Positions 19,668-22,613 of a stretch of DNA of 26,838 nucleotides are shown here, piece after piece (within the stretch, counting starts at the first letter, position 1; each line of letters starts with the position of its first letter). Made by a program: the position numbers and the translations under genes. Source of the DNA: a virus; IMG/VR virus record IMGVR_UViG_3300030116_005570, positions 1 through 26,838 of that record. The stretch is one strand, 5' to 3'. A model generated the notes under the pieces. The model was not told where the DNA came from and searched no databases. It saw nothing but the letters and a program-made list of their open reading frames with translations.

Positions 19668-20228
19668 TTAACTCCTTTTTACTCCTATTGTAGCTGGCCC
19701 ACTTATTCTAATGCCAGTTAAGTATTGTTCAATTATAGGTGGTATTCGATTAGAACCTACAGCTCCATAAAATCTAGGTTTTACTTGTAAATTTCCAATC
19801 GATACTTCACTATAATCTTCAAATCCACTTAAATCCAATCCATCTTTATTGTTATTTAAATAGACTGCTAAATGAATTTGAGCATGCTTTACTCTATCAG
19901 GTAATTCATCATCTGCATAAAAAGCAGGTTGTAAATTACTCGGATATAAAGCATTGTAAGTACTTGTATAAGTATACGGTTTTTTTACACCAGTTCTAGG
20001 CCATTCAAGTGCTTGAGCATCATTAGTTCTGGCACCTAAAAATCTTTCTCTATCAATTCTTTGTGTAGCACTAAAAAGTGCTCGGTTTTTTTGGTCTGTT
20101 GTTGCACTACTCCATGCAGTAACATCTTCATTTTCTACTAGACCATCTATAAAAGCTTGAGCCTGAGCTAAAGTGACATAGCTATTAGCAGTTGCACTTC
20201 CAGCTGTTTCAACTATTGAGATTGCCAT
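19668..20228 (-). CDS. head-tail adaptor (DnaT-like connector family)
   Basis: A 186-residue protein with the adaptor family pattern: an N-terminal ETAGSATANSYVTLAQAQAF, a WSSATTDQKNRALFSATQRI helix, then DRERFLGART, ALEWPRTGVK, LPDRVKHAQIHLAVYL and a C-terminal IGVKRS. The ANSY(V/A)(S/T)-x-(A/E)-x-A, K-x-x-AL-x-x-AT-x-x-ID and (L/W)-x-WPR sequence is what annotation usually calls a DnaT-like phage protein, located after the capsid gene and thought to attach to the portal. It overlaps the 43-residue ORF upstream by 20 nt. Confidence 0.75.
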   Translation of the reverse strand: MAISIVETAGSATANSYVTLAQAQAFIDGLVENEDVTAWSSATTDQKNRALFSATQRIDRERFLGARTNDAQALEWPRTGVKKPYTYTSTYNALYPSNLQPAFYADDELPDRVKHAQIHLAVYLNNNKDGLDLSGFEDYSEVSIGNLQVKPRFYGAVGSNRIPPIIEQYLTGIRISGPATIGVKRS

Positions 20229-20340
20229 TAGTTTTTAATTTTTTAGGCTTTTTTACTTTTTTTTGTTCGAGAAGTGGAGAAGCCACTTTTAATTTTGCAG
20301 CTTCCCTTTCTCTAGCTAAACGAAATGTAGCTATACCCAT
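20209..20340 (-). CDS. 43-residue basic protein after the decoration gene
   Basis: A short ORF with a TAATG junction to the preceding gene: MGIATFRLAREREAAKLKVA, then SPLLEQKKVKKPKKLKTNGN and LNS. It is helical at the N-terminus and Lys-rich later. It fills the 111-nt space between two real genes and runs 20 nt into the adaptor gene. The FR-x-AR-x-(R/K)-EAAK start resembles small basic proteins I remember between capsid and connector genes of other tailed phages. Its function is unknown. Confidence 0.6.
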   Translation of the reverse strand: MGIATFRLAREREAAKLKVASPLLEQKKVKKPKKLKTNGNLNS

Positions 20341-20719: not shown

Positions 20720-21781
20720 TTAATCTAATGGTGAAGTAACAGTAGCACGTACGATTCCTATATTTTTGATGTCGTACACTTTTTCCCAGTTAGTTGCAGT
20801 TTCGAGCTGTGCCCTTGTTGGGTTTGTAGTTGTCACTGCCCATTTCAACCCAATTGGGTGATAAATATAAGCATGTTTAAATGAAACTACATCTTCAAAT
20901 GCAAGAACATCTTCATCAACTTTAGTTACTAAAGCAGCCTGCTCGCCCGTTGCTACGCTTCCTTGAGAGAAAAAATAGACCGCATATTCCGTAGAAGAAC
21001 CTGAACCAGCAGTAGGAATATCATCAGAAACAACAATATTCATTCCCATGTATTGAGGAACAGATACATCACCATAAGCACCAGCAGAAGATCCACCAAA
21101 AGCATTAATTGTACTTGCGCCGGTTGCTGCTGTTCCTAGTCTTGCTTCACTGTTAGTAACATAATCTAATGCTCTTCTTTCTTTAAGTGCATAAAACACT
21201 TTTGAATGCATGGCAATAGTTGTTAATTTATCTCCTTGATCTCCAAGTAAAGACTGAGCTTTTGCAACAGTACCAGCACCTAGAGCTGTTGGAGTGTCAC
21301 CAGATTCAGAATCAATTGAAAGTTCAAATAAAGCAGAAGAACTATTGTTAGCAGTTAAAGAACCAAAAGCACCTTGTAAACAACTATACAAATCTTTTTG
21401 TTTTTCATTGTTTATGTAAGCACCTAATTTTTGTCTAATTGCTGCTATTGGATCAGGTGAATTTGAACCAATTTTTTGACCTGCAAGTTGTCTTGCAGAA
21501 AAAGCATCTCCAGCAGTAAGAACAACACCAATTTGGCTGCTTTGTTCAATTTTATTTGGAGTAAGTGAAGAACTATCATTCAAACGAGTGTAGTTACCAC
21601 TTAAATTTGCCTTATAAAAAGGAATATTGACGAAATTTCCGCCAGCTGTTGAGCTTAAGTTTAGCTCAGGTAGAGGTGCAAGAACGCCACTCTGAAGAAA
21701 ACTATCTCTTAAAGTTGTCTCTTCAATAATGGAATCTGCAAATACCTCAGGAATAATAATGTCCGAAAGAGTAGTAGCCAT
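20720..21781 (-). CDS. major capsid protein
   Basis: A 353-residue protein in the slot after the scaffold gene. The N-terminus TTLSDIIIPEVFADSIIEET and LRDSFLQSGVL, then GGNFVNIPFYKANLSGNYTR, and a helix with NEKQKDLYSCLQGAFG, match the HK97-fold coat group with the (L/M)SD-x-I-x-PEVF start (often called the gp13-like capsid family). Later parts have IAMHSKVFYALKERRALDYV and a C-terminal FKHAYIYHPIGLKWAVTTTNPTR split across the P domain and tail. No separate prohead protease gene is seen nearby and the protein lacks a long N-terminal delta domain, consistent with the separate scaffold gene upstream. Its mRNA leader carries three hairpins (21807-21876). Confidence 0.9.
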   Translation of the reverse strand: MATTLSDIIIPEVFADSIIEETTLRDSFLQSGVLAPLPELNLSSTAGGNFVNIPFYKANLSGNYTRLNDSSSLTPNKIEQSSQIGVVLTAGDAFSARQLAGQKIGSNSPDPIAAIRQKLGAYINNEKQKDLYSCLQGAFGSLTANNSSSALFELSIDSESGDTPTALGAGTVAKAQSLLGDQGDKLTTIAMHSKVFYALKERRALDYVTNSEARLGTAATGASTINAFGGSSAGAYGDVSVPQYMGMNIVVSDDIPTAGSGSSTEYAVYFFSQGSVATGEQAALVTKVDEDVLAFEDVVSFKHAYIYHPIGLKWAVTTTNPTRAQLETATNWEKVYDIKNIGIVRATVTSPLD

Positions 21782-21806
21782 TTCAAAGAAATGTTTAATT
21801 TTACAA

Positions 21807-21876
21807 AGATGAGCACAGCCCTCTAAATTTCAGCACAGCCTTAATTTAGTTTTTCAAATCAGCACAGCCGAATTTG
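21807..21876 (-). promoter_or_regulatory. three tandem hairpins in the capsid gene leader
   Basis: In mRNA sense three copies of GGCTGTGCT (plus-strand AGCACAGCC at 21861-21869, 21832-21840, 21812-21820) each fold as GGC-UGU-GCU with a UGU loop. Hairpin 1 (21855-21876) extends with C-G then CAAAU/AUUUG around one bulged U. Hairpin 2 (21823-21849) extends with CUAAAUU/AAUUUAG after a 2x2 internal loop. Hairpin 3 (21807-21824) extends with G-C, a bulged A, and AGA/UCU. The lower stems differ in sequence but each is self-complementary. Hairpins 2 and 3 share two bases. The last hairpin ends 25 nt before the capsid ATG. A protein-bound translational or mRNA-stability element is inferred; a DNA-level operator is the alternative. 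Confidence 0.6.
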
Positions 21877-21905
21877 TTATTACTAAAACTATAACTCAAT
21901 ATTTC

Positions 21906-22613
21906 TTATTTGTAATCTTTAGCAATTTTTTTTGCAGCTAGCCAAGCATCACGACCATATTTTGCATGAATTTCATGAGCTGCAGTATCTTCACCTTGAG
22001 CCATTCTTTTTAATAAATTAGTATCAATACCAGCAATTGATCCAGGAATTTCACTTTTTCCAATTGGTGCACCAGAACCAACAGGCGGTTGATTTTTTAA
22101 AGCCCATGTTTGAACTTTTTCTTTAACAGCTTCTTGTATAGGTTTTGAAGTAAAACCATCATCTGACAAATAAACAACCGCACCATCTTTTTGAACTTGA
22201 ATTTTGTCTTTGTCAAGTTTGCTCATTGCATAATCAGGATCATGTACAAGTTCAGATAATGCACTTACAGCCGGTGTAACTAATTTTAATTCTTTTAGTT
22301 CATTTTTTAAAGAATTAATTTCATCATCTTTTTTTTCAATAACTTCTTTAAATTGTTCTTCTCTTTTATTTAATGCTTCTGAATATTGACCTTTTTCTTC
22401 TAATCTTTCTTGTTCAACTTTTTGTTTGAATTCAATCAGAGCTTGAACATCAGTTCCTTCTGGTAAAGTTGCAACAGATTTAGCATTAGAAGTAATTTTC
22501 TGTTTTTCTTCAACAACTTCTCGATTTTTTTGTTTTAATAATTCAATTTCTTTTTTTAATCGATCAATTTCAGCTGAATTATCAACAGCTGCTGCGGGAT
22601 TTTCTTCTGCCAT
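21906..22613 (-). CDS. capsid scaffolding protein
   Basis: A 235-residue protein, mostly charged coiled coil: EIDRLKKEIELLKQKNREVV, then VQALIEFKQKVEQERLEEKG and EQFKEVIEKKDDEINSLKNE. A less helical C-terminal half follows with ALSELVHDPDYAMSKLDKDK, PPVGSGAPIGK and a basic end AAKKIAKDYK. Acidic/coiled N-terminus, short basic C-terminus and position directly upstream of the capsid gene fit phage scaffolds of the DUF4355-like kind, whose basic tail contacts the coat protein. It is expected to be inside the prohead and absent from the mature virion. Confidence 0.85.
   Translation of the reverse strand: MAEENPAAAVDNSAEIDRLKKEIELLKQKNREVVEEKQKITSNAKSVATLPEGTDVQALIEFKQKVEQERLEEKGQYSEALNKREEQFKEVIEKKDDEINSLKNELKELKLVTPAVSALSELVHDPDYAMSKLDKDKIQVQKDGAVVYLSDDGFTSKPIQEAVKEKVQTWALKNQPPVGSGAPIGKSEIPGSIAGIDTNLLKRMAQGEDTAAHEIHAKYGRDAWLAAKKIAKDYK

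Follow-up and report, generated by a model that had tools for sequence, protein, structure and literature searches.

Assembly of tailed phages requires a balanced supply of scaffold and coat proteins, and how the scaffold/coat balance is sensed is, to our knowledge, largely unknown. In the RNA phages MS2 and Qbeta, the operator is a hairpin by a start codon that is bound by a virion protein, a coat dimer reading through its beta-sheet; this interaction controls a head gene, and loop and protein vary together. The N protein of phage lambda reads the small boxB hairpin with an alpha-helix, in phage-specific pairs of loop and peptide. Autogenously regulated ribosomal protein operons carry a structured mRNA leader that is bound by a protein from the same operon. 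In the tailed phage P22, the scaffold reportedly controls head-gene expression post-transcriptionally, as King, Casjens, and Wyckoff are said to have found between 1978 and 1985, and we know of no RNA operator or reading residues that have been defined for it.

Here we describe a leader of cyanophage capsid mRNAs that can be compared with each of these systems. As in MS2 and Qbeta, an assembly protein would bind a hairpin near a start codon, but the phages are tailed and have dsDNA genomes, the proposed reader is the scaffold, acting through an N-terminal zipper helix instead of a beta-sheet coat dimer, and there are two or three hairpins. The likeness to P22 lies in scaffold-based control of head genes, for which the cyanophages offer covariation support only; the scaffold is of another protein family, and the cyanophage site precedes the coat gene. 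With lambda N and boxB the leader shares an alpha-helix and a small hairpin in phage-specific pairs, but it has no antitermination context, it has two hairpins with equal loops, and it would be read by a zipper dimer and not by a free Arg-rich peptide. The combination that defines the lambda system, an Arg-rich peptide with a boxA/boxB nut site ahead of terminators, does not apply, as the motif is a heptad zipper and not an Arg-rich stretch. Like the ribosomal protein leaders, this leader is structured and its proposed reader comes from the same operon, but we saw no rRNA mimicry and no match to an Rfam family. Comparison of sequences makes it likely that each phage's scaffold protein uses the leader as its RNA operator, and a homodimer of the scaffold would bind the paired hairpins and control coat synthesis; there are no binding, expression, or structure data.

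Tandem hairpins in the capsid leader

The window analyzed here is a stretch of 26,838 nucleotides from the virus record IMGVR_UViG_3300030116_005570 (27,936 bases in full) and carries the head and tail module of a siphophage on the minus strand. The gene for the scaffold protein, the proposed hairpin reader (positions 21906 to 22613, minus strand; phrog_206), lies upstream of the hairpins, and the gene for an SPP1 gp13-like major capsid protein (positions 20720 to 21781, minus strand; phrog_247, PF20036) lies downstream of them. All three copies of GGCUGUGCU fall in the 124-nt gap between the two genes, and the rest of the record (27,936 bases) has none. Read on the minus (mRNA) strand, GGCTGTGCT occurs at positions 21812 to 21820, 21832 to 21840, and 21861 to 21869, against a chance expectation of 0.11 matches per window, and no shuffle reached three copies. 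The initial annotation of this DNA had already placed three tandem copies in a gap of this length, and it was correct on the copies, their coordinates, and the gap.

Each copy of GGCTGTGCT forms the tip of one hairpin, and all three hairpins lie on the minus strand with the triloop UGU. H1, the 5'-most in the mRNA (positions 21855 to 21876), reads CAAAU.CGGC-UGU-GCUGAUUUG and is found in this clade only. H2 (positions 21823 to 21849) reads CUAAAUU-AA-GGC-UGU-GCU-GA-AAUUUAG, with an AA/GA internal loop, and H3 (positions 21807 to 21824) reads AGAGGGC-UGU-GCUCAUCU and ends 25 nt upstream of the capsid start codon; these two make up the conserved core. H2 and H3 have positions 21823 and 21824 in common, the two-base overlap from which competition between them had been suggested. 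Between H3 and the capsid start codon lies a GUAAA box (positions 21799 to 21804, minus strand), which is exact in 110 of 184 leaders and present in a relaxed form in 153 of 184. The distance from the end of H3 to the capsid AUG is 25 to 40 nt across leaders, with a median of 29 nt.

Folding of the single sequence is only modestly informative. Compared with shuffled sequences, H1 and H2 have z scores of about -2.5, H3 is not better than most (z of -0.8), and the leader as a whole is only mildly unusual (z of -1.3). Folding energy from one sequence is weak evidence, so comparison with relatives has to decide.

Two other features of the locus were recorded. A -10-like TANNNT stands upstream of the hairpins at window positions 21888 to 21893 (minus strand). 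Downstream of the capsid gene and the gene that follows it, an Arg/Lys-rich open reading frame of 43 residues without prior annotation occupies window positions 20209 to 20340 (minus strand; MGIATFRLAREREAAK...), and it had no Pfam or PHROG match.

Distribution among cyanophages

By DNA, the nearest named relatives are the Prochlorococcus phages MED4-184, MED4-117, and P-HS2; by capsid protein, they are the same three together with the Synechococcus phages KBS-S-2A and S-H1 (57 to 61% identical). Among capsid-homologue loci, a clade at 92% identity retains three hairpins, and phages at about 60% identity have two, H2 and H3, whose stems are very different yet paired (in MED4-184, for example, ACGUGGU-UGU-GCUACGU and GAGGU-UGU-GCCUC). 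The count of three given in the initial annotation thus applies to this clade, but the conserved core elsewhere is the pair. The overlap of H2 and H3 is likewise real but clade-specific, so competition between them cannot be a general property of the element.

The element precedes the capsid gene in every homologue that was read, in marine and freshwater cyanophages, with two or three hairpins. A covariance-model search with inspection upstream of homologous capsid genes, the check proposed at the outset, bore out the location: there was one strong match per record in 38 of 38 records, each in the capsid leader, and three further matches were near chance (E of 0.04 to 0.5). A pattern scan for the UAC form gave 120 matches, 107 directly before this capsid gene and nine cut by contig ends. 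The remaining four were chance matches on unrelated contigs, and a location of the element before other genes was rejected on this basis.

The initial annotation knew of no described family for the element, and this still stands: in Rfam 15 the window had no match at gathering score, the best subthreshold hits being unrelated families far below their gathering scores, and a literature search, with most subscription papers outside its reach, found no description of the element. One MED4-184-like contig with both hairpins (L376) comes from a marine single-cell assembly labelled Alphaproteobacteria (AG-426-I04), for which the host assignment is uncertain.

Evidence for selected RNA structure

Covariation was measured on an alignment of 37 rows from diverse relatives, with 500 shuffles and five measures. 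Eighty percent of the alignment cells are paired, double changes occur in 10 of 13 base pairs, and none of the 500 shuffles reached any of the five measures. When the structure was slid along the alignment, pairing fell to 25 to 49%. We drew the consensus structure from the same sequences, and the slid control is biased towards it; the counts of changes on both sides of a pair are independent of that choice.

Outside the internal loop, G.U pairs outnumber A.C pairs in mRNA sense by 55 to 6. Such an excess is expected of RNA of the mRNA sense and not of a DNA dyad, which argues against the double-stranded DNA operator that had been named in advance as a possible refutation, and we rejected that candidate. 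Covariation and strand asymmetry together establish the leader hairpins as RNA structure under selection. The original reading of a shared apex on differing self-complementary stems as selected structure, not repeat copying, therefore holds, since the stems of relatives change and stay paired. Support is good for the RNA element itself, for the strand to which it belongs, and for its link with the capsid gene.

Matched loops within each phage

The loop triplet is the same in all hairpins of one phage in 146 of 146 distinct leaders. The types seen are UGC, UGU, UAC, and CGU, together with a tetraloop form, UUGU or UUGC. Extra pattern matches overlap the 3' arm of H2; the loops of the eight leaders with the tetraloop form, and those of L242, were assigned by eye. 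The capsid tree requires at least 20 changes of loop type, some of them between phages with 98 to 100% identical capsid proteins. Equal loops on unequal stems point to a single trans-acting reader.

Scaffold residues and the loop triplet

In sister phages with different loops, the C-terminal part of the scaffold is nearly identical and the N-terminal 50 residues differ. Grouping scaffold N-termini by loop type exposed a motif centered on an Asn that is conserved (position 0), a stripe of nine residues in the N-terminal leucine-zipper helix that covaries perfectly with the loop triplet. In a first set of 162, position -3 is K or R with U at base 3 (57/57) and E or D with C at base 3 (105/105); position +1 is Y, F, or H with A at base 2 (44/44) and never otherwise (118/118); and position +5 is K with C at base 1 (4/4), for an overall agreement of 162/162. 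In the phage studied here, the zipper helix spans scaffold residues 16 to 40 (positions 22494 to 22568, minus strand) with N30 at position 0, and K27 (-3), R31 (+1), and E35 (+5) predict the loop U-G-U that is observed.

A scan of 740 columns in the scaffold, the capsid protein, and the head-tail adaptor found full prediction at scaffold motif columns only, namely, -8 and -3 for base 3 and +1, +5, and +6 for base 2. Because -8 performs as well as -3, and +5 and +6 as well as +1, the residues that would touch the RNA remain unresolved. Residues at -8 and -3 combine as E with K/R or as S/R with E/D and are never mixed, a pattern that would fit a g-e' salt-bridge swap between zipper helices.

The rule was written down before the scaffolds of the new pattern-scan loci were read. 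That new set comprised 122 scaffold sequences, with the motif found automatically in 117, and 108 had a usable capsid sequence. In these 108 unseen phages, the three parts of the rule held in 107/107, 108/108, and 108/108, with 15/15 independent contrasts in agreement for bases 3 and 2. Three apparent misses were due to automatic misplacement of the motif, and the true motif, EKKNFELIGKL, obeys the rule. In L503, R replaces K at +5 and is still basic. One phage, L582, has a UGU loop and Asn at -3 (NRKNKELLEEK), a case that the rule does not cover; this Asn is a possible extra letter of the code.

With both sets combined, agreement was 262/262 for -3 and base 3, 263/263 for +1 and base 2, and 263/263 for +5 and base 1. 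Independent contrasts on the capsid tree were 16/16 for base 3 (P = 3e-5) and 18/18 for base 2 (P = 8e-6), and the base 1 rule rests on only three independent changes, all in agreement (3/3). In the new set, bases 2 and 3 switch jointly (UAC versus UGU), so the tests for these two bases are not independent of each other, and any separation of the role of -3 from that of +1 depends on the first set, through its UGC phages. As a putative reader of the hairpins, the N-terminal helix of the scaffold is strongly supported by this covariation.

Alternative explanations

The hairpins might instead be a processing or stability element that guards the 5' end of the capsid mRNA from decay, with no phage-specific reader. 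The capsid is a highly expressed gene, and 87 of 123 leaders have a -10-like TA[AG]NNT at, overlapping, or just after the stop codon of the scaffold gene, possibly a capsid promoter, which may place the hairpins near the mRNA 5' end. Such a function would leave unexplained both the same loops on different stems and the co-change with scaffold residues, and we consider it improbable.

A capsid reader of the kind known from MS2 and other RNA phages would suit an element that always lies immediately upstream of the capsid gene. Yet phages with 100% identical capsid proteins differ in stems and loop form, and the best capsid column reaches 93.8% for base 3 and 92.6% for base 2, against 100% in the scaffold, which leaves this possibility very unlikely. 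The initial annotation had offered coat or scaffold as the binding protein. The scaffold half of that proposal is strongly favored, since only scaffold N-terminal residues predict the loop perfectly, and the coat half fails on identical capsids with different hairpins; binding data are lacking for both.

We give little more than nominal weight to genetic linkage, or to RNA-RNA pairing with the scaffold coding sequence, as the source of the association. About 0.6 kb separates the two loci, and recombination exchanges them, but the intervening scaffold C-terminus is less associated with the loop: the loop label requires 6 changes on the tree of scaffold N-termini, against 16 for the C-termini and 18 for the capsid protein. 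Linkage fails to account for these counts, since the part of the scaffold gene that codes for the N-terminus is more distant from the leader than the part for the C-terminus. At -3, the codons found with U are seven basic ones and those found with C are four acidic ones, and varied synonymous and similar-class codons serve at both -3 and +1; the association follows residue class across codons, which places the link at the protein level. Finally, the small Arg-rich protein whose gene directly follows those for capsid and decoration proteins is barely credible as a reader of the lambda N/boxB kind and was dropped, because its N-terminus (MG-FAFRRLRERE), conserved in many of these phages, barely differs where loops differ (for example, L149/L158 or L077/L107).

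Other candidates were also rejected. Clustering of open reading frames from 35 genomes found only structural and packaging proteins to be universal, with no dedicated phage RNA-binding gene. Loop-loop kissing fails because the triplets are not self-complementary, and the loops cannot act as codons because the spacing between them is not a multiple of three.

Proposed mechanism

The scaffold N-terminal helix is predicted to form a short leucine zipper. Hydrophobic residues fill heptad positions d -11, a -7, d -4, and d +3 in 99 to 100% of sequences, and Asn occupies a0 in 151 of 162, so the helix has the hydrophobic a/d heptads and the polar Asn expected of a two-stranded parallel zipper. Such zippers share this placement of Asn at 'a', and the helix may thus form a parallel homodimer. 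A structure model places a helix at scaffold residues 13 to 47 with moderate confidence, and profile comparison links the motif only weakly with the coiled coils of CREB, FosW, and proteasomal ATPase. The related scaffold gp11 of SPP1 is a stable dimer in solution (PMC6813328).

One face of the helix (-3, +1, and +5, or i, i+4, and i+8) would read one triloop at bases 3, 2, and 1, respectively, and it would be chemically sensible for an acid to face C, with its amino group, and a base to face U, with its keto group. The two identical faces of a homodimer would account for two hairpins whose loops are always alike; the third hairpin of this clade is a poor fit to a simple dimer. Bound beside the site where ribosomes load on the capsid gene, free scaffold would govern how fast coat is made and so keep the scaffold:coat ratio, and H3, at 25 to 40 nt from the AUG, would be near enough to impede ribosome loading. 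The sign of control is most likely repression, a preference drawn from the P22 precedent, and activation or capture of nascent coat is not excluded. The comparison shows that the RNA structure is conserved, on which strand it acts, that it is confined to this gene, and that residues and bases covary. That the scaffold binds, that it does so as a homodimer, and in which direction it acts are inferences. Translational feedback, which the initial annotation had suggested, is likewise not something that the sequences show.

In an abundant cyanophage group, the scaffold protein thus very probably acts as the sensor of scaffold and coat supply, through an RNA site that is defined here. The natural pairs of loop and residue are a ready-made mutational experiment. 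If the proposal is true, zipper helices would offer a programmable module of a new kind for binding RNA, and a molecular mechanism that can be searched for in many phages would be at hand for scaffold autoregulation of the P22 type. We remain evenly divided on the broadest version, a new mode of RNA reading in which the outer face of a homodimeric zipper would read a triloop by a colinear code of residues i, i+4, and i+8 (at -3, an acid would call for C and a base for U; at +1, an aromatic residue for A; and at +5, a basic residue for C), through which scaffolds would control head-gene mRNAs, and which would extend to Serratia, Salmonella, and Xanthomonas phages with the site moved to the scaffold gene.

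Hairpins in other phages

The gaps between scaffold and coat genes of SPP1, Listeria, Pasteurella, Serratia Eta, and Salmonella Ent2 phages are short and have no hairpins. Fourteen other phages were screened, and six of them have tandem hairpins with matched loops ahead of the scaffold gene (≤0.004 by shuffles in each case). The definition of a hairpin pair was set after the first cases had been seen, so these pairs are a lead and not a result. They occur in Serratia Eta and Salmonella Ent2 (scaffold leaders of loci L091 and L095), Xanthomonas XAJ2 (L730), Serratia ZDD2 (L731), and Bradyrhizobium BDU-MI-1 (L733). The sixth is JenP2, whose first hairpin is terminator-like; its distant relatives have no pair, and within the Queuovirinae the tandem hairpins were found in the JenP2 clade only. 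Rfam 15 had no match for the Eta, Ent2, XAJ2, and ZDD2 regions either. In Jersey-like relatives, loop one is NGG and loop two is AGG, which amounts to looser matching. In Eta and Ent2, the two hairpins have AGG loops and stand immediately ahead of the scaffold gene, where the second one covers the likely Shine-Dalgarno sequence, and the scaffolds of both phages have a similar zipper (LKANNDRLLAEKK and LKANQEALLNEKK).
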